DNA from: Clostridia bacterium | GTDB lineage: Bacteria > CBDUZB01 > JAGLHV01 | NCBI GenBank assembly: GCA_030595925.1 | Contig: JAUVLC010000076.1 | Location: 1-11,533 of the forward strand | DNA length: 11,533 nucleotides | Direction of reading: 5' to 3' | Shown here: piece by piece, positions 2,127-11,533 of the stretch | Position numbering within the stretch: the first letter of the stretch is position 1 | Layout: every line of letters starts with the position of its first letter | The notes under the pieces: generated by a model | What the model was told of the DNA's origin: nothing | Databases searched by the model: none | What the model saw: only the letters and a program-made list of their open reading frames with translations | Program-made: the position numbers and the translations under genes

Positions 2127-2154
2127 TTGACAAAATAAAAAAAGGTACTATACT
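2127..2154 (+). promoter_or_regulatory. Sigma70-type promoter for the riboswitch-controlled transcript
   Basis: The -35 box is TTGACA (2127-2132, perfect), the spacer is 16 bp, and the -10 box is TATACT (2149-2154, five of six). The predicted start at about 2161 lies some 58 nt before the first riboswitch helix, so the whole aptamer would be transcribed. A second TTGACA at 2191-2196 has no good -10 partner before the aptamer. Confidence 0.65.
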
Positions 2155-2218
2155 TAAAATAAAAAATGTGATAAAACTCACATTAACAAATTGACAATTG
2201 TATATAGAGAATTATTTC

Positions 2219-2300
2219 CTCTGATAAAGGTAAACCTCGGGAAACCGGGGGACACAAAACTGCGGGTCCACTATTATAGTGGAAAGCTGGGTTGCCAGAG
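2219..2300 (+). promoter_or_regulatory. Cyclic-di-GMP-I (GEMM-I) riboswitch aptamer
   Basis: The order and spacing of conserved elements match the GEMM-I aptamer. The closing helix is CTCTG (2219-2223) with CAGAG (2296-2300). The conserved GGTAAACC leads into a hairpin capped by a GAAA tetraloop (the loop that docks in the tetraloop receptor). GGGACACAAAAC and GCGGGTCC follow, then a second hairpin (CCACTA/TAGTGG), then GCTGGGTTGCC. In known structures a G just before the (C/U)AAA of the first conserved segment reads one guanine of the ligand. The equivalent base here is G2230; it is retained, which favours c-di-GMP over 3',3'-cGAMP. A terminator follows at once, so control is probably transcriptional. 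Confidence 0.85.
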
Positions 2301-2312
2301 ACTGAAAAAAAT

Positions 2313-2358
2313 AAAACCAGGTTAACCGCAGAAAAAGCGAAATAACCTGGTTTTTTTT
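2313..2358 (+). terminator. Riboswitch expression platform: intrinsic terminator
   Basis: AAAACCAGGTTA (2313-2324) pairs perfectly with TAACCTGGTTTT (2343-2354). An extra CGC/GCG stem sits inside the loop, and the right arm merges into T8 (2351-2358). It lies 12 nt after the c-di-GMP aptamer and 27 nt before the first gene. A competing pairing of AACCAG (2315-2320) with CTGGGTT (2287-2293, one bulged G) is possible. It would tie the 3' part of the aptamer to the terminator. Confidence 0.85.
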
Positions 2359-2385
2359 ATGTAAGGAAAAAAGGGAAATGAAAAA

Positions 2386-2814
2386 ATGAAAAAACGAATT
2401 TTTATCTTTTTTGTCTTTTTTATGCTTTTTATGTGGGGAGGTAATATTTATGCTTCCTCTGTTGATAGTAATTTATTTTTACCCGGAACTTCTTCGGATT
2501 TTTACTTAAGAATAAAGATGCAATTATTACCTCTTTATTTGATTTTTCCTGATTTGGATGTTCGCGATGAGAAAAACAAACCGGTAAAAGATTGTAACGA
2601 TTTGTTTTTAAACAGTATGAATTATTGGGATAATATTTCAAACATTTGGGGTGTTATCAAGAAAAGAGTAAAAATAGGGGATATAGAATTAGCCATAATA
2701 AACTTAAATAAATTAAAAATCACAAAATCATCTGATAATACAAGATACCTGGATACTGCTGTATGCTTTTTTAAAGATGGTCTTTTTTTAAAACTACAGG
2801 TTATTCTTTTTTGA
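2386..2814 (+). CDS. Unknown secreted 142-aa protein, first gene behind the c-di-GMP riboswitch
   Basis: I do not recognise the family. Residues 1-23 form a signal peptide (MKKR, a Phe-rich core, cleavage after IYA). The mature part is about 119 residues, without a lipobox or clear repeats. It contains hydrophobic segments (MQLLPLYLIFPDLDV), an Asn/Ile/Lys-rich middle and a C-terminus LFLKLQVILF that ends like an outer-membrane or pilin beta-strand. The ATG at 2386 follows AAGGGA with suitable spacing; the ATG at 2378 opens only a three-codon frame. It is the gene nearest the riboswitch, 101 nt before pilin 1. A short open frame before pilin 2 (3493-3630) ends in a similar C-terminus. A role as accessory or minor subunit, or periplasmic factor of the fimbria-like system, is inferred from position only. 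Confidence 0.65.
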   Translation: MKKRIFIFFVFFMLFMWGGNIYASSVDSNLFLPGTSSDFYLRIKMQLLPLYLIFPDLDVRDEKNKPVKDCNDLFLNSMNYWDNISNIWGVIKKRVKIGDIELAIINLNKLKITKSSDNTRYLDTAVCFFKDGLFLKLQVILF

Positions 2815-2854
2815 AAACCTCTCTTTCCTCAAAGAAGTGTCTCTAAGTAAAATC

Positions 2855-2886
2855 AAATTAAAAAAATTACAAATTAAAAAAATTAC
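2855..2886 (+). repeat. Two perfect tandem copies of a 16-bp AT-rich unit
   Basis: The unit AAATTAAAAAAATTAC occurs at 2855-2870 and again at 2871-2886 without a mismatch, followed by a partial AAAACAAAA. It lies in the leader just before the ribosome-binding site of pilin 1. Copy number could change by slippage, altering leader length or structure. Confidence 0.8.
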
Positions 2887-2915
2887 AAAACAAAATAACT
2901 TAAAGGAGAAAAAAA

Positions 2916-3407
2916 ATGAAGAAATTAACGATTCTCTTAATAACAATCGGACTTATACTACAAATAAGCGGGATAGTAATGGCAGACAATATCGGTGACC
3001 ATCAGGTCACCATTATCATAGCTGTGGTAAATGAGCTGGAGATTATCGGGGGTAATATTACCTTGACCATTAATACCGCAACAGCCGGAAGCGGATTGAT
3101 TGATGATACAGACAATACTTGTGCACTTGACTGGACGACCAACTCTGGTAGTGTCAAAAAGATTACCGGACAGTTAGATACCGATTATTCGACTGGTATT
3201 TCATTAGCCGTAAATGTTACTGTGGCTGGTGGTAATGGTGCCAGTGCCGGGCAGCAAACACTTATTAGTGCCAGTGCAGTGGATCTGGTCACCGGAATGC
3301 ATAATGAATTTGTTAGTGCTAATACCCTTGGTTATACAGCATCAGCTCCCACTGCTTCTCCGGCCAGTGAGACAAAGACTGTCACTTATACAATTCTTGA
3401 TCAGTAA
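2916..3407 (+). CDS. Pilin-like secreted subunit 1 (163 aa)
   Basis: This small secreted beta-rich protein is likely the major subunit of a fimbria-like fibre. The start is clear: AAGGAG lies 7 nt before the ATG. Residues 1-23 are a signal peptide (cleavage after VMA). A 14-16-residue extension with alternating hydrophobics (HQVTIIIAVV) follows, then a Thr/Ala/Ser/Gly-rich beta-sandwich-like body with one Cys (TCALDW). The C-terminus is TVTYTILDQ. Chaperone-usher pilins share this layout: an N-terminal donor strand, an incomplete Ig fold and a C-terminal edge strand with an aromatic residue near the end. I see no sequence match to the FimA or CsuA/B families, so the role rests on layout and neighbours. 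It is about 80% identical to the 163-aa protein at 3768-4259 in its C-terminal half. It is followed at once by a strong terminator, which suits an abundantly made subunit. Confidence 0.75.
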   Translation: MKKLTILLITIGLILQISGIVMADNIGDHQVTIIIAVVNELEIIGGNITLTINTATAGSGLIDDTDNTCALDWTTNSGSVKKITGQLDTDYSTGISLAVNVTVAGGNGASAGQQTLISASAVDLVTGMHNEFVSANTLGYTASAPTASPASETKTVTYTILDQ

Positions 3408-3432
3408 TTAATTACTCATCTACAAGGGGGAA

Positions 3433-3466
3433 GGGGGGGAGGAGAAATCCTCCCCTCTTTTTTTTT
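3433..3466 (+). terminator. Strong intrinsic terminator after pilin 1
   Basis: GGGGAGGA (3436-3443) pairs with TCCTCCCC (3448-3455) around a GAAA loop. The stem extends outward through G-T and G-C pairs to 3433/3458 and is followed by T9 (3458-3466). This is one of the few GC-rich stretches in the window. It should end or attenuate most transcripts arriving from the riboswitch, uncoupling pilin 1 from the downstream assembly genes. Confidence 0.9.
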
Positions 3467-3492
3467 ATTTTTTTTATATATTTATTGCAGTA

Positions 3493-3630
3493 ATGGTAAA
3501 CCGGTTTGATAAAATGTTTGCCGAATTATTCTCTCCTTACAAAATAGTTTGTCTATACAAAACATCTGAATACTGCTGTTTACCTTTCCCGGACAACCTT
3601 TATTTAAAATTAAAAATTATTCTTTCTTGA
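3493..3630 (+). pseudogene. 45-codon remnant resembling the C-terminus of the 142-aa gene
   Basis: This is a short open frame from an ATG at 3493 without a good ribosome-binding site. Its last residues (DNLYLKLKIILS then stop) match the end of the 142-aa protein at 2386-2814 (DGLFLKLQVILF then stop) at most positions, including CxxFxD spacing just before. The DNA after both stops is also alike (TTCCTCAA, then GTGTCT). It therefore looks like a decayed partial copy of the upstream gene, carried along when the pilin unit was duplicated. It could instead be a spurious frame; the similarity covers only about 20 codons. Confidence 0.4.
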
Positions 3631-3722
3631 AATTTTTTCCTCAATGCAGTGTCTTTAAAGAACATCAATGTAAAACAAATGCAAAGTAAATAAATTAAAT
3701 TAAACCTTTGGAAATTAAATAT

Positions 3723-3751
3723 TTGACTAAAAAAAGAAAAAGTAATATAAT
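3723..3751 (+). promoter_or_regulatory. Sigma70-type promoter directly before pilin 2
   Basis: The -35 box is TTGACT (3723-3728, five of six), the spacer is 17 bp and mostly A, and the -10 box is TATAAT (3746-3751, perfect). The predicted start falls near 3758, only about 10 nt before the ATG and within the G6 ribosome-binding tract (3755-3760). The leader would be very short. The match is strong, but chance occurrence in A-rich DNA remains possible. Confidence 0.6.
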
Positions 3752-3767
3752 CCAGGGGGGTATAAAA

Positions 3768-4259
3768 ATGAAAAGATTACTAGTTTTTTTGATAGCAGTT
3801 GGATTTATCTGGCGAATAAGCGGGATAATAATGGCGGCTAATAATGATAATCAGCAGGTGACCATTATGGTTGTTGCAGTCAATGAATTGGCTGTTACCG
3901 GGGGTAATATTACTCTGACCATTAATACTGCGACGGCTGGTAGTGGACTGAATAATGCTACAGACACTACCTGCGCACTTGACTGGACGACCAATTCCAG
4001 TACTAATAAAAAGGTTACCGGGCAATTAGATACTGATTATTCAGCCGGTATTTCATTAGCTGTGAGTGTTACCGTAACGGGTGGTAATGGTGTTAGTGCG
4101 GGGCAGCAAACACTTATTAGTGCCAGTGCGGTGGATCTTGTTACCGGGATGCATAATGAGTTTGTCAGTGCCAATACTTTGGGTTATACGGCATCAGCTC
4201 CTACTGCTTCTCCGGCCACTAATACTAAGACTGTCACTTATACAATTATTGACCAGTAA
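3768..4259 (+). CDS. Pilin-like secreted subunit 2 (163 aa)
   Basis: This is a paralogue of pilin 1 with the same length, signal peptide (residues 1-23, ending IIMA), N-terminal hydrophobic extension (QQVTIMVVAV), single-Cys TCALDW motif and C-terminus TVTYTIIDQ. The start is set at ATG 3768 because GGGGGG lies 7 nt upstream and the signal peptide begins there. A longer in-frame TTG start at 3708 would put 20 polar residues before the signal peptide. The copies are most alike from GQLDTDY onward, with only scattered changes, and differ more near the N-terminus. It heads a compact gene group with the third subunit, the chaperone-like and the usher-like gene, so it is likely co-expressed with the assembly machinery. 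Alternative subunit or antigenic partner roles are inferred. Confidence 0.75.
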   Translation: MKRLLVFLIAVGFIWRISGIIMAANNDNQQVTIMVVAVNELAVTGGNITLTINTATAGSGLNNATDTTCALDWTTNSSTNKKVTGQLDTDYSAGISLAVSVTVTGGNGVSAGQQTLISASAVDLVTGMHNEFVSANTLGYTASAPTASPATNTKTVTYTIIDQ

Positions 4260-4297
4260 ACGGAGGTATTTTTTTACCATCTTTTGGGTAAATAATA

Positions 4298-4774
4298 ATG
4301 AAGAAAAGAATTATTATTATATCAATTTTATTATTAGGGTATTTTGTTTTTTTTGCCCGGGATAGATTAATTTTTGCTGCCTCTTTAAGTGTTACCGGGG
4401 GCGATATTGTTTTAACTATTTCTACTGCTGTTGCCGGGGGAAATCCGGATTCGGTTAGTAATGAAGTTAGCGGACTTAGCTATGGGACAAATCCTCAAAC
4501 ATATAAAATAACAGCAAGAACGAGTTTAGCTGCTCCGCTGTTTACTTTGATGGTGCTGGTAAAAAACATTCAAACAGGTGGTAGTGGTAGTGGCGGGACT
4601 GCTCAGTCGCAAATAACTTTGAGTACAACTGACCAGGATGTTGTCGTGGGTGTTACCGGAGGAACATTAGCTAATCCTCACACCTGTACTTTGGAATATA
4701 CTGCTTCGGCTACGGCAGCCCAGGGAACCGGAAATGATGTTCATACTATTACTTATACTATTGTAAAACAATAA
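4298..4774 (+). CDS. Pilin-like secreted subunit 3, lacks N-terminal extension (158 aa)
   Basis: This is a diverged member of the same subunit family. Residues 1-27 are a long signal peptide (cleavage near IFA). The mature protein begins directly at SLSVTGGDIVLTI, which aligns with LAVTGGNITLTI inside pilin 2. The ~15-residue hydrophobic extension of pilins 1 and 2 is therefore absent. It ends HTITYTIVKQ, matching the family C-terminus, and is Gly/Thr/Ser-rich (QTGGSGSGGTAQ). In donor-strand assembly the subunit lacking the extension is the one secreted first, at the tip; that role is an inference here. The ATG at 4298 is the first start after an in-frame stop. Its own Shine-Dalgarno is weak (TGGG about 10 nt upstream), while a good GGAGG sits 31 nt away, which suggests low translation, fitting a minor subunit. 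Confidence 0.7.
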   Translation: MKKRIIIISILLLGYFVFFARDRLIFAASLSVTGGDIVLTISTAVAGGNPDSVSNEVSGLSYGTNPQTYKITARTSLAAPLFTLMVLVKNIQTGGSGSGGTAQSQITLSTTDQDVVVGVTGGTLANPHTCTLEYTASATAAQGTGNDVHTITYTIVKQ

Positions 4775-4787
4775 ATAAAGGGGAAAG

Positions 4788-5597
4788 ATGATAAAAAATA
4801 TTATTATAGGGTTTATCTTTTTTTTGTTTCTTGGTTCAACTGAGGTTTATGCCGGTTTTTCGGTGATAGGGGAATTAACCAGAGAAAGAGCTGTCCAGTG
4901 CGGAGAAAAATTTGAGGAAAAAATTCTTTTAAAAAATAAGGGAGATGTTTCTACTAAAGTAAAAATTTATCAAACGGATTATCTTTTTTTTGCTGATGGG
5001 AAAAACATCTATGGAGAACCGGGGAGTATTCCCCGTTCTAACGGTAAGTGGATTACAATAGATACTACCCGGTTGGTTATTCCTCCTAAAAATACTGCTT
5101 CTTTTGGTTATATGGTTTGCTTACCTCAAAAAAAAGATTTAAAGGGGACCTATTGGAGTATAATTATGGTAGAATCAATACCTTCCATAACTCCGGAAAA
5201 AAAGAAAGATAAAAAAAGAAAAGGTGACTTTGGCATTCAGACTCGTATACGTTATGGGATACAAATTGTTACCAATATTATGGATACAGGAACCCGTAAT
5301 ATAAAGTTTTTAGATAAGAAATTAATTTATGAAAAAGGAAAAAAGATTTTTCAATTAGATATTGAAAATACCGGAGAAAGATTGCTTGTTCCTTTTGTCT
5401 GGGCAGAGTTTTATAATAAAAATGGAATAAATATCGGACGTTTTGAAAGCAAAAAATTGCGAATTTATCCTGAATGTTCGGTAAGGCACAGTATTGATTT
5501 AACTACTGTGAAGAAGGGAAAATATAAAGTTTTAGTAATAGTTGATAATGAAGATGGATCTGTTTTTGGAGCACGATATAATTTAAGGATTAAGTAA
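4788..5597 (+). CDS. Periplasmic chaperone-like protein with two Ig-like domains (269 aa)
   Basis: The likely role is to stabilise the secreted subunits in the periplasm and deliver them to the outer-membrane protein encoded next. Residues 1-22 are a signal peptide (cleavage after VYA). Domain 1 (about 23-132) looks like an Ig-type beta-sandwich: ILLKNKGDVSTKVKIY, the tail SNGKWITI, VIPPKNTASFGYMVCLP and GTYWSIIMVES. That order resembles the N-terminal domain of PapD-like and DUF916-like proteins. A Lys-rich linker (136-147) leads to a second Ig-like domain (about 150-269). The total of about 247 mature residues is slightly longer than classical PapD-type chaperones. I cannot point with certainty to the Arg/Lys pair that anchors subunit C-termini in PapD. 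GGGGAAAG precedes the ATG, 13 nt after subunit 3. The stop codon overlaps the usher-like ATG by one base, implying translational coupling. Confidence 0.65.
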   Translation: MIKNIIIGFIFFLFLGSTEVYAGFSVIGELTRERAVQCGEKFEEKILLKNKGDVSTKVKIYQTDYLFFADGKNIYGEPGSIPRSNGKWITIDTTRLVIPPKNTASFGYMVCLPQKKDLKGTYWSIIMVESIPSITPEKKKDKKRKGDFGIQTRIRYGIQIVTNIMDTGTRNIKFLDKKLIYEKGKKIFQLDIENTGERLLVPFVWAEFYNKNGINIGRFESKKLRIYPECSVRHSIDLTTVKKGKYKVLVIVDNEDGSVFGARYNLRIK

Positions 5598-8376
5598 TGA
5601 GAAAAGCATTTTTCCTTTTTTTTTTATTCTATTTTCTTTTAATTCCGCTGAAAGTAAAGAATTTATAGTTAAAGCAAAATTAACCTCTCCGAAATTCCTA
5701 AAAATAGAACCAGGAAAAATTGTTACCTGTAGTTTTCTTGTCTCTAATCATTCCCGCCGCAAGGAGAAATTTTTTGAAAAACTGAATCTTCCCAGTGGAT
5801 GGCAAGTAATTGTTTCCGGAAAACTTCATTTTGAATTAAAACCAAAACAAAAAGAGCTTAGAGTAATGGCTTTTTTTGTTCCTAACTCTTGTCCGGCAGG
5901 TCGTTATCATATGACTTATTATGTCGGAAGTCATAGCAATCATAAAATCACTGATAATGTTTCTTTTTCGGTGCTTGTTCTACCCGTCATAAAATTGAAG
6001 ATATTGGTAGAAAACAAGCCGGAGGTAGTTCTGGCCGGTGAGCCTTATAAAGTAAAATTACGCTTGATTAATCAAGGCAATAGTAAAAGAGATTTAAAAT
6101 TAGAAGTAAAGGGAATTCCTGATTATTCGTTAAAAATGCCGGTATCGGAGATAAGTCTTAAAGCCGGGGAATCTGTGCCTTTAGAGATTAAAGTGAAAAC
6201 AGATACAAGATTAAAGAAAGAAATAAAACATATTATTACCGTTAAAGCCAGTACAAAAAAATTAAAAAAAGAGGTTGTTTCTACAACTACAAGCCAGGTA
6301 ATTTTAACTGAAATTATACCCAGAATAACCTGTAAATTTGATCCTTATCATAGAATTCCCTCCCAAATAAAGTTAATTGGTGTAAAGGAAGACAGAGAGA
6401 CTGCTTTTCAAGTGGAATTTTCCGGTTCGGGAAAGTTAGATGAAGAAGGAAAAACCGGAGTTGATTTTTTGTTCAGGGGAGATGATATTTACAATAAAAG
6501 TATTTATGGAAAAAGAGATGAATATTATTTAAATTATTATTCTAAATTATTAGATTTTTTTGTTGGTGACAAGAACTATTCTCTTTCTCCTTTAACGGAA
6601 AGATACAAATATGGGCGGGGAGCAGAAATAGAGATTTATCCCGCAGACTTTACATTAGGAACATTTTATTTGAAAAGTAGATGGGAAAATCCCGAAGAAG
6701 AACGGGTAGGAACATATGTTGAATATAAATTTAATGATTACTTTAATGTTAAGGGAAATTTTTTGAATAAAAACAAGGAATTGTATAATGACAAAATTAC
6801 TAGTTTCCAGACACAAATAAAACCAACTGAAAAATTAAATCTTGAGTTGGAATATGGTTATTGCAATAGTCGGAGGGAAGGAAGATTTAATGATAGTGCT
6901 TATAGCGTAGATTTTGAAGGGGAAGTTTATAACCGGGTATATTATAGTCTCAAAAAAATTTATGCTAACCCAAATTTTTTTGGGTATTATAACGATATTG
7001 ATTATAATTTTCAAAGATTAGTTTTTCCGATTTATGATAAATTGCGTGGAAAGATGTCTTATCACAATTATAAGAATAATCTTGATAGGGATGTTATTCG
7101 GGAAGTAGCGGCAAAAGAAGAATCTTACGAAGTAGGAATTTCTTATCCGGTTAACCATGGTATGCATATTTATTTAGATTATAAAGATTTTCGAAGAAAG
7201 GATGAGCTTTTGCCGGCAGACTATGATTATGGAGAAAACTTATTGAGATTGAGGTTAGAGCAAACCTTCCGGAAAATTAGCATTCATTCTTATATAGAAA
7301 GAGGTAGATTTGAAAACGAGCTTTTTAATAATGAAAATAACTATTTAGAAAGATATGCCTTTTACGCGTATTTTCGTCCCAATTATAAGCAATCCTATAG
7401 TGTTTATACGAAAATTGGACATAATAGTTTTTCGGGAAGCCCCCAAAAAGCAAAAAGTACCGGTGTTTTGGGTACCTGGCATATTAATAATTTTTATTTT
7501 AATTTGAATTATAAGCACTATAAAGGTGATAATCTTCAACAGCATAATATCTTTTCTAAATTTTTCTATACGTTGCCCAATAACCATTCTTTATCGTTAA
7601 AAGGTCATTGGTTTAGATATGAAGAAAAAAAAGAAGAAAAAACTTCTTTTTTTCTCGTCTATACTGTTCCATGGGGAATACCGGTAAAGAAAAGAGAATT
7701 TATTGGAAGTGTTAAAGGAAAGGTTTATGACGGAGAAAAAGGGGAAAAGGTGCCGATTGTTAATGTAATTTTAAGAATCAACGGAGCAACGGCAATTACC
7801 GATAAAAAAGGCAGATTTGTCTTTCCCTCACTTAAACCGGGAACTTGTTTTTTAATGATAGAGAATAGTTCTATCGGATTGAATCGCCTGGCAGATAAAA
7901 AGTTACCTATTAAAGTCATAGTAAAAGGAGGAGAGGTTACTAAGATTAAAATTGGGATAGTAAATTCCGGTACTATTTCAGGAGAAGTAATATTTTTTGC
8001 TAGTAAAAAGAAAAAAGATAAAATTTTAAAAGATAACGTTTTTTTAATTGGGTCAGAACAAACTGATTATCTGCAAGGGAGTGATAAAAATAATTTAAGA
8101 GAAAAAAAAGCTCTAAGTAATGTACTGGTAGAAATTAATAATGACCGGGAAATTTTTAGAGAAAACACGAATGAAAAAGGGGAGTTTTATTTTAAGAATA
8201 TAAGGCCTGGAAAATGGACTTTAAAATTTTATGACTACAATTTACCTGCATATCATTATTTTGAAAAAAACGAATTTCAGATTGAATTGAAACCGGGAGA
8301 AAAGCGGCAGTTTGTGATAAAAGTTTTACCTCGATTTAGGTCGATTAAAATTATTGACGAGGGAGAGATAAGATAG
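5597..8376 (+). CDS. Usher-like outer-membrane protein with Ig-like and carboxypeptidase-regulatory-like domains; frame broken at a T10 tract
   Basis: The probable secretion/assembly platform of the locus. The true start is ATG 5597: AAGGA lies 7 nt upstream and the start overlaps the chaperone stop. As read, that frame ends after 23 codons at TAG 5666. The main frame runs open from 5587 to 8376 but has no ATG, GTG or TTG before 5866. One extra T in the run at 5616-5625 joins them into a 926-residue protein with a normal signal peptide (MRKAFFLFF..., cleavage near NSA/ESKEF). Next come two NEW3/Ig-like domains (about 20-240). A long Tyr/Asn/Lys-rich region of alternating strands follows (about 250-700), typical of an outer-membrane barrel, with GDKNYSLSPL and YGRGAEIEI. 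Two carboxypeptidase-regulatory-like beta-sandwich domains close it (about 704-790 and 838-885, with TDKKGRFVF and TNEKGEFYF). Size and C-terminal sandwiches recall fimbrial ushers, but I see no plug domain or usher signature. The frame break could be phase variation, slippage, decay or an assembly error. Confidence 0.65.
5616..5625 (+). repeat. T10 homopolymer at the usher-like frame switch
   Basis: Ten consecutive T residues lie in the signal-peptide codons, 19 bases after the start. With T10 the ATG frame stops at 5666; with T11 (or T8) it fuses to the 8376 frame and encodes a well-formed signal peptide. Homopolymers of this length near the 5' end are classic slipped-strand contingency sites and also frequent sites of sequencing error. 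Confidence 0.85.
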
Positions 8377-8449: not shown

Positions 8450-9373
8450 TTAACGGGCCATAAATAACACTGCTGCCAAACTTAAACCAATACTTACTTT
8501 GGTAAGTATTTTATCATCTTTGTCCATTGTGTAGTTTGCTTTTTTTGAATTTTTATTGGACGTAAGAGAAGTTTTAGAATATTGGTTGATAGGTTTTTGC
8601 TTGGCCAGACTGCGTTTGACTTCCTTGTTTATAATTTTTTTGAATGTAGATGATTTTTGAATAATTTTGGAAATTTTATTTTCGTTAATTGGCGAATATG
8701 GTTTATCCAAAAGGCTTAGTTTGTCTTTTAGCATAGAAAGTTCTTTGTTTATTTTTGCAATTTGGTAGACGCTAACATTTTTTCTTTTTATTGTATTTTT
8801 CCCTGTGGGTTTTATGTTTTGTATTTTGTTTAATTGTGTTTTTAAGATAGAAAGTTCTTTGTTTATTTTTGTAATTTGGTAGCTGCGAACATTTTTTCCT
8901 TTTGTTGTATTTTTCCCAGTGGGTTTTGTCTTTTGTATTTTGTTTAATTGTGTTTTTAGGATCAAAAGTTCTTTGTTTATTTCTGTAATTTGTTCCACAC
9001 TAACGTTTTTAACATCTTTTGTTGTTGTTTTTTCTTTGGGTAAAGATTTTGTGTTGGACATTCTATTTAGTTGTGTTTTTAGGCTGGTGATTCTTTTTAT
9101 TAATACTTTTTGGTATTCCAATAATGTTTGATTAAGTTTATTGTATTCATGTAAAGCTAAAAGTAAGTCTTCTCTGGTAACAGTAGCTGTGGGACGAAAA
9201 TAACCGCTACCATATTTGTTTATAAATTTGTTTAATATTTTCTGATTGTCAAAATCGTTAACTGCTTTTTTTACTGCCGGGCGTACATCTTTATACTCTT
9301 TTGCGTAAACAACGGAATTTAAAAGAAAAGTACATAATACGGTAAAACCTGATATAAGTAATTTTTTTTTCAT
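8450..9373 (-). CDS. SLH-domain, coiled-coil, C-terminally anchored envelope protein (Omp-alpha-like, 307 aa)
   Basis: Probably a rod that links peptidoglycan to the outer membrane. Residues 1-24 are a signal peptide (ending VVYA). Residues 25-80 look like one S-layer homology domain: YKDVRPAVKKAV, then GYFRPTATVTREDLLLAL, the family's typical FRP-x-x-x-x-TRE ending. Residues 85-222 are coiled coil built on 38-residue repeats (INKELxILKTQLNKIQ). Residues 223-285 are Lys/Ser/Asn-rich, and 290-306 form a hydrophobic C-terminal segment (SIGLSLAAVLFMA). Signal peptide, SLH, rod and C-terminal anchor is the plan of Thermotoga Omp-alpha, though this protein is shorter; OmpM-type proteins have a barrel instead. 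The start is clear: GGAGGGAG precedes the ATG within the 13-nt gap after the PorV-like gene. It is the last gene of the minus-strand operon. Confidence 0.75.
   Translation of the reverse strand: MKKKLLISGFTVLCTFLLNSVVYAKEYKDVRPAVKKAVNDFDNQKILNKFINKYGSGYFRPTATVTREDLLLALHEYNKLNQTLLEYQKVLIKRITSLKTQLNRMSNTKSLPKEKTTTKDVKNVSVEQITEINKELLILKTQLNKIQKTKPTGKNTTKGKNVRSYQITKINKELSILKTQLNKIQNIKPTGKNTIKRKNVSVYQIAKINKELSMLKDKLSLLDKPYSPINENKISKIIQKSSTFKKIINKEVKRSLAKQKPINQYSKTSLTSNKNSKKANYTMDKDDKILTKVSIGLSLAAVLFMAR
8708..9100 (-). repeat. 114-bp in-frame repeats encoding the coiled coil
   Basis: An exact 114-bp (38-codon) period is visible, for example in AAAGTTCTTTGTTTAT ending its AAAG at 8740, 8854 and 8968. 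Two full copies and one partial copy are closely alike, with a more diverged fourth (about 40 codons) at the 5' side of the gene. The high DNA identity suggests fairly recent expansion, so coil length may vary between strains. Confidence 0.8.
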
Positions 9374-9386
9374 TTTACTCCCTCCA

Positions 9387-10421
9387 TTAAAAGAATTCTA
9401 TAATTAAAGAAATTCTATGTTTATTTCCTAATCGATAAGAACCGAAGGCATAATCTATTTGAAAACTATGCTCTAAAATATTTACTTTAGCTCCGGTACC
9501 TATTGTCCAATTAATATGATTGTTTATGTCCGATATGTTTCCGTATCTATTTTCAAGAGCGAGTTCGTCTATCCCGGCTCTTAAACTTAATAAAGAGATT
9601 TTAGAAGATGGTAATAAATAATTAAACTCGGCACCCAGATGAGTACATAATGGTTGTTTTTGGGTTTGTATCAAATCCATAAGGCCTATTATTGAGGTTA
9701 ATTTTTTCTTTAAAAATTTATAAGAAGTGCCGACTTTAATTTTTAACGGGCTCTTATCCTTGTGTCCGTTGTCCCATTTTAATTTTATTTCGTTTTGGAG
9801 GAGAAGTCCTAATTTTAAATCCTGGTCAAGGGAATAAATTAAACCGGCATCCAATCCATAGCCTATAGCGGAAGCATCTTTTACTTTAGTGAATTTTTGG
9901 GTTATTAATTTAAAATTTCCACCTACTAAAAAATTACCGGACCCCAATGGCCGGCCGTAAGAAATTAAGTAGGCATTTTCCCGGTCACTAAGTGTATCTC
10001 TTATTATTTCTCCGGAAGTATCCATCCATGTATAGGGAATATTATTCAGTCCACAGTGAATCCAGCTAATGGCAAATGAACCGCCTATTGTTCTTAACCC
10101 AATTTTATCTGCGGGTAGTAAAATACTGAGAAATTGATATTTAGGGGTAATGTCTTCTATGCCGTCCCATTGGCTGCTTGCCAGGGACTGAATCATAGTG
10201 GTTAAAGCTATCTTGTCGGATGTTCCCAGTCCGGCGGGGTTCCAGTATGCTGCAGTAGCATCATCACTAACAGCAGTAAAAGCTCCTCCCATACCAAGTG
10301 CACGTGCACCAACACCGATATTCAGGAAAGCCGCTGCGTTTGTTCCTGCCCGGCAGGGTTGGGTTGCAAAGAAAAAAATACAGAATAAGGGAACTATGCC
10401 GATTAGATTTTTTAATTTCAT
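9387..10421 (-). CDS. PorV/PorQ (UPF0164)-family outer-membrane protein (344 aa)
   Basis: This is an outer-membrane beta-barrel of the FadL-like PorV/PorQ group. In type IX secretion PorV binds the C-terminal signal of cargo and shuttles it from the translocon to the attachment complex. The family hallmark follows the signal peptide: NIGVGARALGMGGAFTAVSD, then DATAAYWNPAGL. The rest alternates barrel strands and turns, ending in a typical C-terminal strand with a terminal Phe (ISLIIEFF). The start is placed at ATG 10421, since GAGG lies 9 nt upstream and a good signal peptide (residues 1-25, ending CRA) begins there. A GTG at 10436 overlaps the previous stop but has no ribosome-binding site. 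It sits 11 nt after the FlgD-Ig-tailed gene. Many phyla carry several UPF0164 paralogues, so a non-T9SS role is possible. Confidence 0.85.
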   Translation of the reverse strand: MKLKNLIGIVPLFCIFFFATQPCRAGTNAAAFLNIGVGARALGMGGAFTAVSDDATAAYWNPAGLGTSDKIALTTMIQSLASSQWDGIEDITPKYQFLSILLPADKIGLRTIGGSFAISWIHCGLNNIPYTWMDTSGEIIRDTLSDRENAYLISYGRPLGSGNFLVGGNFKLITQKFTKVKDASAIGYGLDAGLIYSLDQDLKLGLLLQNEIKLKWDNGHKDKSPLKIKVGTSYKFLKKKLTSIIGLMDLIQTQKQPLCTHLGAEFNYLLPSSKISLLSLRAGIDELALENRYGNISDINNHINWTIGTGAKVNILEHSFQIDYAFGSYRLGNKHRISLIIEFF

Positions 10422-10432
10422 TTTTATTATCC

Positions 10433-11503
10433 TCACTTTCTGAATATAGCTAATGATTTGTATTTTCTATGTTCACCGGATACATCTTTGGCTATAATTT
10501 CACATAAATAAATACCACTGGCTAACTTTTGATTGGCGTAATTGGTTCCTTTCCACCGGTCATTAATATGTTCCCCTACGGTTCGTTCTTGTTCTTTAAT
10601 TAATGTTTTTATTAATTTTCCTCCCAGATCATAGATATTGATAGTTATTCGGGCTTGATGGGATAGGACATATTTTATTACAATTTCCTCCTTATAAGGG
10701 TCAAAAGGACTGGGGTAAGGAATTAAATCTACAATTGTTTTTCTTTTTACTGTAAATATTGCTGATTGTGTACAGGATTTGGGTTCTTTATAACCCACAT
10801 CTTCAACATAAATAGTTACGAGATATCTTTTTCCTGTCTCTAATGCTGTTTCTTCGTATCTATATGAAATTGAATTTCCATTTGAATTGTAAATTTCAGG
10901 ATGTTCGGATGCTCTAATCTCAATGACATTACTACCTTGATATTCATCGATGGTCATTGTTAATGAATTCAGGTTGATTCCCAACCCTTCATCAGAAACG
11001 GTAGATTGAATGAGCGGATGAATGCCGGTATAACCGTTATTACCGGGTTGTAAAATAGTAATTTGAGGAGCTTGATTAATCTGAATATTTATTTTGTACA
11101 TCCCCGAATAAGGGGTTTCGCTTTTAATTCTCCATTGAATATAATTATTGCTTCCTTCTTCAAAAAAGTCTTCATTCCCATAAGTTTGATCAGGGATAGT
11201 AATTTTAAAGCGGATTTGGGTTGGTGAATAGGTATAATCAACAGTTGCATTATCTCGCCAATTATGCCAGTTTTCATTAGCATAACCACTATTTGATATG
11301 CGGTATTCGATATCATTAGTATTTATGACTACATCACACGTAGCAGTGATTAGACAGGTTACAGTAGTAGTGTTTTGACATTCAGATGAGAGAGGGGATT
11401 GGTCGGTAAAATTAATTTCAGCATGGAGTAAACCATGGTTGAATATTAATAATAAAAAAAATAAACACATTTCTTTTAATATCAAAATTACCTTCTTAAG
11501 CAC
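10433..11503 (-). CDS. Secreted protein with Ig-like region and FlgD-Ig/T9SS type-A-like C-terminal domain (356 aa)
   Basis: This is a secreted, probably surface-attached protein of unknown specific function. The start is placed at GTG 11503, because GGAGG lies 8 nt before it and the signal peptide begins there; the ATG at 11518 adds five residues and lacks a Shine-Dalgarno. After the signal peptide (hydrophobic FLLLIF, ending LLHAEINF) comes an unassigned region (about 30-150) rich in Asn, Tyr and Thr. An Ig/cadherin-like segment (about 150-255) contains PQITILQPGNNGYTG and RYLVTIYVEDVG. The last ~90 residues are a FlgD-Ig-like domain: PYPSPFDPYKEE, ITINIYDLGGKLIKTL, DRWKGTNYANQKLASGIYLCEI. 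This domain resembles T9SS type-A sorting tails. It is the first visible gene of the minus-strand operon, directly ahead of the PorV-like gene, which suggests it is a client of that system. No promoter is visible in the 15 bases left. Confidence 0.75.
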   Translation of the reverse strand: MLKKVILILKEMCLFFLLLIFNHGLLHAEINFTDQSPLSSECQNTTTVTCLITATCDVVINTNDIEYRISNSGYANENWHNWRDNATVDYTYSPTQIRFKITIPDQTYGNEDFFEEGSNNYIQWRIKSETPYSGMYKINIQINQAPQITILQPGNNGYTGIHPLIQSTVSDEGLGINLNSLTMTIDEYQGSNVIEIRASEHPEIYNSNGNSISYRYEETALETGKRYLVTIYVEDVGYKEPKSCTQSAIFTVKRKTIVDLIPYPSPFDPYKEEIVIKYVLSHQARITINIYDLGGKLIKTLIKEQERTVGEHINDRWKGTNYANQKLASGIYLCEIIAKDVSGEHRKYKSLAIFRK

Positions 11504-11533
11504 AGATTGTTCCTCCATTTATATTACAGGAAA

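Follow-up and report, generated by a model that had tools for sequence, protein, structure and literature searches.

Chaperone-usher pili are a textbook secretion pathway. Systems of this kind have been described as confined to proteobacteria, with the archaic class found in addition in Cyanobacteria and Deinococcus-Thermus (PMC4654587). For the Gram-positive WxL clusters, Hassan et al. presented AlphaFold models in which a strand of WxLIP fills a gap in WxL and completes its sandwich, and invoked neither donor-strand complementation nor chaperones for this fit (PMC10599100). Here we analysed 11,533 nucleotides of DNA from a Clostridia bacterium (the window), which form one whole contig (G000:C137) of a metagenome-assembled genome, and compared them with two relatives of the same genus; all other genomes used are related at the domain level only. 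Positions 2127-8376 hold a locus of small subunits, a two-domain chaperone and a large barrel protein. In our reading, to which we give a probability of about 0.75, this locus encodes a chaperone-usher-like system for donor-strand assembly of fibres, one of a widespread class that has apparently not been described and is known here from its genes and predicted folds. Its main components are as follows.

2916-3407, forward strand: subunit 1, pilin-like; mature protein from 2985
3768-4259, forward strand: subunit 2, 81% identical to subunit 1
4298-4774, forward strand: subunit 3, a divergent pilin-like open reading frame (ORF) matched by the subunit profile
4788-5597, forward strand: WxLIP-like chaperone with two immunoglobulin (Ig) domains, from profile and PDB comparison
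5597-8376, forward strand: usher-like outer-membrane protein; main frame 5587-8376, ATG at 5597
5668-6318, forward strand: two N-terminal Ig-like domains of the usher, residues 28-244, from domain scan and model
6346-7692, forward strand: usher beta-barrel of ~26 predicted strands, residues 254-702, with no inserted plug, from model and structure matches
7705-8331, forward strand: two C-terminal transthyretin-like domains of the usher, residues 707-806 and 837-915, from domain scan and model

Chaperone, subunits and barrel

As a single sequence, the chaperone (269 amino acids) matches no Pfam model. A profile of its family matched EfmWxLIP1 in the PDB across both domains (E=1.3e-10, profile positions 36-266); on this comparison it is a full-length homologue of Gram-positive WxLIP (DUF916-DUF3324). 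DUF916 was among the families against which the sequence-only reading had suggested profile searches of each protein. Weak WxLIP_PGBD matches were found in 13 of 41 chaperone relatives, and PapD_N (PF00345) in a single one of the 41 homologues, at only E=0.03. Using hhalign, whose E-values describe a pairwise profile comparison and not a database search, we aligned the chaperone over both domains with two archaic chaperones (98.5%, E=1.8e-15). The two come from genuine archaic loci: L130 encodes SCPU subunits together with a PF00577 usher, and L139 encodes SCPU subunits. When usher Ig domains, shuffled sequences or further Ig proteins of the window served as controls, every score stayed below 2%. 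By these profiles, the chaperone is homologous to the chaperones of archaic chaperone-usher systems. Our search of the open-access literature, outside which preprints and subscription papers lay, returned no prior description tying WxLIP to chaperone-usher systems, and this link is most likely the part of the analysis to surprise specialists.

In an alignment of 59 chaperones, the strand after a variable loop is hydrophobic at positions 148, 150, 154, 156, 158 and 160 and carries a nearly constant Arg155. From this layout, residues ~148-160 (nucleotides 5229-5267) are a candidate donor strand G1. The window chaperone stops at its second Ig domain and so lacks the C-terminal membrane helix of WxLIP, which is present in a relative from the candidate phyla radiation (CPR; L015).

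The three small subunits, described in the sequence-only reading as beta-rich with a shared C-terminus, all carry the signature T-x-T-Y-T-I/V in this region. An AlphaFold model of mature subunit 1, with a predicted local distance difference test score (pLDDT) of 93.7 and 32 homologues, is likewise beta-rich and places residues 1-15 in no strand. On the earlier question of whether the subunit fold is complete on its own, the model does not refute the proposal, as it leaves the N-terminal extension unpaired. The best Foldseek matches of the model in the PDB are mostly chaperone-usher pilins, with FocH, FimF, FimH, CfaE, CfaB, EcpA and CsuA/B among the top structural matches, and VIA-align gave Z-scores of 8.8 and 8.6 to the pilin domains of CfaE and CfaB, respectively. 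Its alignments with most chaperone-usher pilins begin at model residue 13-16 and leave the extension out. Across the 32 subunits, this extension is hydrophobic at positions 8, 10 and 12 with polar residues between, a pattern matching that of CsuA/B, which uses Val8, Leu10 and Ile12 as donor residues (PMC4654587); conservation is highest in the final strand, where Thr136 is invariant. The model, the structural matches and the residue pattern together fit incomplete Ig-like pilins whose N-terminal extension would act as a donor strand. Searching the PDB by sequence with the subunit profiles yielded nothing relevant. WxL domains were absent among the structural matches listed for the subunit, which excludes nothing. 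Two longer proteins, of 457 and 478 amino acids (L020, 9976-11349; L054, 3545-4981), carry the subunit domain as their last ~140 residues and are, by layout, candidate two-domain tip adhesins.

The usher model (pLDDT 85.6, predicted template modelling score 0.62) shows a large barrel: FimD structures occupy Foldseek ranks 1-7 (best E 2.6e-13) with PapC close behind, and the non-barrel fold that would have spoken against the earlier proposal was not what the prediction gave. Described ushers follow a plan of ~24 strands, an N-terminal domain (NTD), a plug and two C-terminal domains; here ~26 strands and two C-terminal domains are predicted. In the model, two Ig domains replace the NTD and the barrel has no plug-sized insertion, so gating would have to differ from that of FimD. 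Overall, wherever structure prediction and gene order allow a comparison, the components look like those of a chaperone-usher system.

The gene set of subunit(s), chaperone and barrel recurs in many phyla, as a survey of relatives proposed in the sequence-only reading bore out. In a broad sample of 386 genomes, the chaperone profile matched 53 (about one in seven). An usher-like gene adjoins 27 of the 44 chaperone genes in the loci of this sample (24 downstream, 3 upstream), a count made without the window locus and the orthologous loci of its genus; among named loci it adjoins 29 of 31, always downstream. By record titles, the hosts include Deltaproteobacteria, Spirochaetales, Krumholzibacteriota, Ignavibacteria, Elusimicrobia, Acidobacteriota, Bacteroidota, Rhodothermia and Gemmatimonadetes. 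One usher-bearing locus (L100) comes from a record titled Clostridiales, which is either a diderm member of that group or a bin that is mixed or wrongly labelled. Omp85 is encoded by all usher-bearing genomes tested except one (G368), and two of eight genomes without an adjacent usher lack it, one of them CPR-like and of 0.8 Mb. The genome of the window encodes Omp85 and is therefore diderm.

Several results weigh against a chaperone-usher assignment. The Foldseek E-values of the subunit are weak to modest (0.01 and up), and its profiles show no significant match to archaic (SCPU) pilins (24% at best). Strand F of the chaperone has no obvious equivalent of Arg89 of CsuC, the super-conserved arginine of non-classical chaperones (PMC4654587), the position being mostly Trp or Ser. 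In VIA-align (Z 17.3), ushers lead yet tie with other large barrels, and the usher resembles an archaic usher in its C-terminal domains only (56%). None of the components is matched by an usher or pilin model of Pfam or NCBIfam, and 17 of the 44 sampled chaperone genes have no adjacent usher.

The last of these points suits a different arrangement, surface display without fibres, in which the two-Ig protein would be a lasting partner holding subunit-like domains at the envelope and the barrel would export or anchor them singly, as proposed for WxL loci. The closest solved relative of the chaperone is indeed WxLIP, a surface protein that binds WxL (PMC10599100), and fibre formation in our system is itself deduced. 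Such an arrangement nevertheless appears unlikely to us, given the free N-terminal extension with its donor-strand periodicity, the several near-identical subunit genes per locus, which fit a polymer better, the missing membrane helix of the window chaperone and an usher-size barrel as the usual genetic partner.

Profile scans bear on a second alternative, namely that the locus is an ordinary archaic (sigma) member overlooked by profile libraries. The homology of its chaperone to archaic chaperones, and a last strand and overall gene set like those of Csu loci, speak for this. Pfam and NCBIfam scans of every component, however, returned only generic CarboxypepD-like and NEW3/Ig domains. PF00577 (Usher) had no match at E<=1 in the window and none at E<=0.05 among the 25 families listed for 27 usher homologues; the 32 subunits matched neither SCPU (PF05229) nor a WxL family nor any pilin model. 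Sequence searches of the PDB with usher profiles found only NOMO, for the C-terminal domains. PF00577 and PF05229 were likewise unmatched in the genome of the window (G000) and throughout G000-G002, and the usher differs in its N-terminal domains and has no plug insertion. As true archaic loci in the same genome sample were recognised normally by these profiles, we consider an overlooked sigma member highly improbable, and retain the assignment to an undescribed chaperone-usher-like class. Above cut-off, PF00577 matched 1 of 116 genomes and SCPU matched 3 of 145; since profile sensitivities differ, comparing these frequencies with that of the chaperone is indicative only. A count of 137 matches of our usher profile over the 386 genomes was discarded, as many cover only its promiscuous C-terminal domain.

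Further WxLIP-like proteins occur in other settings. The genus has a second such chaperone (L049, 12471-14792, G000:C122; also L050 and L051) with larger subunit-like neighbours, no adjacent usher and an OmpA-like protein nearby. Proteins of 490-576 amino acids, about twice the chaperone length, match the two-domain chaperone profile in four loci without an adjacent usher (L075, 6943-8673; L085, 6705-8336; L078, 7442-9001; L086, 7831-9300). In a CPR-like genome without Omp85 (L019, 5907-10830, G061), WxLIP-like proteins with a C-terminal membrane helix lie beside subunit-like proteins, an arrangement that may be intermediate between WxL clusters and the usher-bearing system.

A frame break in the usher gene

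The usher ATG (5597) opens only 23 codons, including the signal peptide, and the remainder of the gene lies in the -1 frame, with the change at a run of T residues:

5616-5625, forward strand: T10 tract in the usher signal peptide; main frame -1 to the ATG, U UUU UUA in the zero frame

The main frame (5587-8376) runs for 929 codons from stop to stop and contains no start codon before 5866. The sequence-only reading had given the last gene a signal peptide only if one base was added, and we found that the ATG frame and the -1 main frame do meet at T10. Two other genomes of the genus share the break, with T10 at the same offset; in the diverged congener the position and length of the tract are unchanged and both neighbouring bases have changed. 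In a Spirochaetales relative (L093, usher 63% GC), T11 stands at the equivalent place (~5460) with an in-frame stop directly after it, and in another locus (L072, ~8248) a T9 tract accompanies a displaced main frame. Because the break is repeated in the genus (T10) and in the Spirochaetales relative (T11), sequencing error is unlikely in the genus. A non-canonical start codon in the usher frame was ruled out, as no start is common to the window and its relative L090. In one further locus (L094, ~1468), a long T or A tract lies early in the usher gene and the main frame is displaced.

Ribosomal -1 shifting, RNA polymerase slippage and replicative phase variation are all candidate mechanisms at the tract; no stimulatory RNA structure was predicted 3' of T10 (z about 0). 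There are precedents both for homopolymer switching of pili and for slippage at A/T runs (PMC9187656, PMC1088944). As regards the frame break alone, the tract could be a phase-variation switch operating by slipped-strand DNA replication, and not a fixed recoding site. Slippage switching of pili offers a precedent (PMC9187656), and T8-T11 tracts occur in usher signal peptides of several lineages, out of frame in some and in frame in others, including three ushers with T8 or T9 (L068, L055 and L101). Against this, the out-of-frame signal-peptide cases (the window genus, L093 and L072) all share one -1 register, and within the genus T10 is kept exactly despite diverged flanks. We place replicative switching somewhat below even odds.

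Riboswitch and transcription units

The remaining features lie mainly upstream, within the part of the locus that carries the first subunit.

2127-2154, forward strand: promoter-like site P1, TTGACA-16-TATACT, 11/12, a consensus match only, upstream of the riboswitch
2220-2300, forward strand: c-di-GMP-I riboswitch aptamer, GGC subtype (Rfam RF03167)
2260-2331, forward strand: putative antiterminator pairing, CUGCGG (2260-2265) with CCGCAG (2326-2331), from a co-transcriptional series of minimum free energy folds; overlaps aptamer helix P3
2313-2358, forward strand: intrinsic terminator of the riboswitch, predicted ON/OFF element (RNA fold z = -6.15)
2386-2814, forward strand: ORF for a 142-amino-acid exported protein of a genus-restricted family, always behind a c-di-GMP-I riboswitch
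3425-3466, forward strand: intrinsic terminator after subunit 1, a very strong terminator-like site (-27.3 kcal/mol), also in L090
3539-3697, forward strand: decayed 3' copy of the 142-amino-acid gene (71% over 164 nt, E=1e-19)
3723-3751, forward strand: promoter-like site P2, TTGACT-17-TATAAT, 11/12, directly 5' of subunit 2, conserved in three genomes

An aptamer for cyclic di-GMP (c-di-GMP) followed by six signal-peptide genes had been read from the sequence, and Rfam, the ORFs and the N-termini uphold this order; signal-peptide-like starts were judged by eye in all six proteins, with no dedicated predictor. The RF03167 match scores 59.6 bits against a gathering score of 59 (E=2.7e-12), and the element also exceeds that of RF01051 (64.7 versus 35 bits). 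It is one of 18 c-di-GMP-I riboswitches above cut-off in the genome. Aptamer and terminator do not overlap; instead, a competing helix pairs the 5' strand of aptamer helix P3 with the terminator loop. In six leaders from three genomes, each 5' of a homologue of the 142-amino-acid protein, both terminator and antiterminator helices are kept in 6/6. Three terminator pairs are changed on both sides, and the antiterminator shows one compensatory G-C to A-U pair and one G-U; the covarying antiterminator column belongs to P3 too, so its covariation is evidence that the two helices share. With ligand bound, P3 would be stabilised and the terminator freed, whereupon transcription would stop; the riboswitch is therefore predicted to be an OFF switch for the first unit.

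All six members of the 142-amino-acid family found in the genus lie directly 3' of a c-di-GMP-I riboswitch (6/6; loci including L122, L123, L124, L125 and L126), and the protein belongs to a genus-level family linked to this riboswitch and is probably not part of the assembly machine. The decayed copy of its gene (local score 155, against <=84 in 200 shuffles) is, by alignment, a trace of tandem duplication of this gene together with a subunit, and subunits 1 and 2 read as products of tandem duplication. The terminator after subunit 1 is predicted in the most diverged congener as well, and P2 in both congeners. Terminator (3425-3466) and P2 together split the locus into what read as two transcription units, one comprising P1, riboswitch, 142-amino-acid gene, subunit 1 and terminator, and the other P2, subunit 2, subunit 3, chaperone and usher.

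The earlier claim of c-di-GMP control is not supported for the locus as a whole. The riboswitch is real and directly fronts only the 142-amino-acid gene and subunit 1, but the rest is separated from it by a conserved terminator and promoter, and the switch is predicted to be OFF with ligand. No riboswitch was found in ten relatives from other phyla, which assigns c-di-GMP control to the genus and rules the riboswitch out as a general feature of the class (n=10).

Elsewhere in the window, positions 1-1794 and 8450-11518 include genes for a repeat protein whose tail is CHU_C-like, a PorV/OMPP1-like barrel and a protein whose C-terminus resembles Por_Secre_tail/FlgD. These flanking genes hint at a type IX-like secretion system in the lineage.

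Proposed mechanism and comparison with described systems

Under the chaperone-usher-like reading, the subunits would be exported as incomplete Ig-like pilins with the mature N-terminus (residues ~6-13, hydrophobic at 8, 10 and 12) as a free donor strand. The WxLIP-like chaperone would lend its G1 strand, with alternating hydrophobic residues at 148-160, and so cap each subunit in the periplasm. The usher-like barrel would receive the complexes through its two N-terminal Ig domains and its C-terminal domains, and the subunits would polymerise by donor-strand exchange during passage through the pore. c-di-GMP would terminate the first transcription unit, and usher output would be kept low or variable by the poly-T tract, which puts the greater part of the gene into the -1 frame. 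The chaperone homology, the conserved gene set and the conserved frame break are direct results, as are the folds as predictions; complementation and exchange, secretion through the barrel and the fibre itself are steps that we infer from them, and so are the OFF direction of the switch and what happens at the T tract.

A system of apparently the same logic would have been missed by current curated profiles: its chaperone occurs in 53 of 386 genomes, and the classical usher profile matched 1 of 116, bearing in mind that sensitivities differ. Many exported proteins that lack annotation in Bacteroidota, Ignavibacteria, Krumholzibacteriota, Elusimicrobia and further groups would be accounted for, and WxLIP, so far read as peptidoglycan- and host-binding, gains a testable function as a donor-strand chaperone. 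A wider synthesis, whose chances we regard as evenly balanced, is that WxLIP, the chaperones described here and archaic chaperones form one donor-strand chaperone family, in which the usher-bearing class is a separate broad branch, Gram-positive WxL clusters are its usher-free counterpart, and in several lineages a poly-T site gates usher synthesis by recoding or switching.

The sequence-only reading had called the locus chaperone-usher-like and outside the alpha, beta, gamma, kappa, pi and sigma groups; chaperone homology, predicted barrel and pilin folds, gene-set conservation and the lack of any family-level match all support it. As the components fall outside the usher and pilin families that define the described classes, we place the system outside the named classes and still within the chaperone-usher kind. 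Like archaic (sigma)/Csu systems, it has a two-domain chaperone, homologous to theirs, in an operon with subunits and usher; the subunits, too, are pilin-like with a donor-type extension at the N-terminus, and the large barrel bears C-terminal domains. It differs from them in having no Usher or SCPU Pfam match, no obvious Arg89 equivalent in the chaperone, two N-terminal Ig domains and no inserted plug in the usher, and in its presence in many phyla without a described chaperone-usher system.

With WxL clusters (WxL and WxLIP) it has in common a full-length WxLIP homologue with small beta-sandwich partners encoded alongside; in published models, a WxLIP strand complements WxL (PMC10599100). 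In contrast to those clusters, its hosts are diderm, an usher-like barrel is added, no WxL domain is matched and the window chaperone has no C-terminal membrane helix. The classical FimC/FimD and PapD/PapC systems provide the best matches to the predicted barrel (FimD and PapC), and the predicted subunit matches their pilins, whereas the locus described here has no sequence-family match to them, other N-terminal domains and no plug insertion. Finally, usher-free donor-strand fibres (TasA/TapA, archaeal threads and cannulae) have a similar predicted fold, and some are among the structural matches; those fibres have no outer-membrane usher, whereas here the barrel gene is a regular partner.

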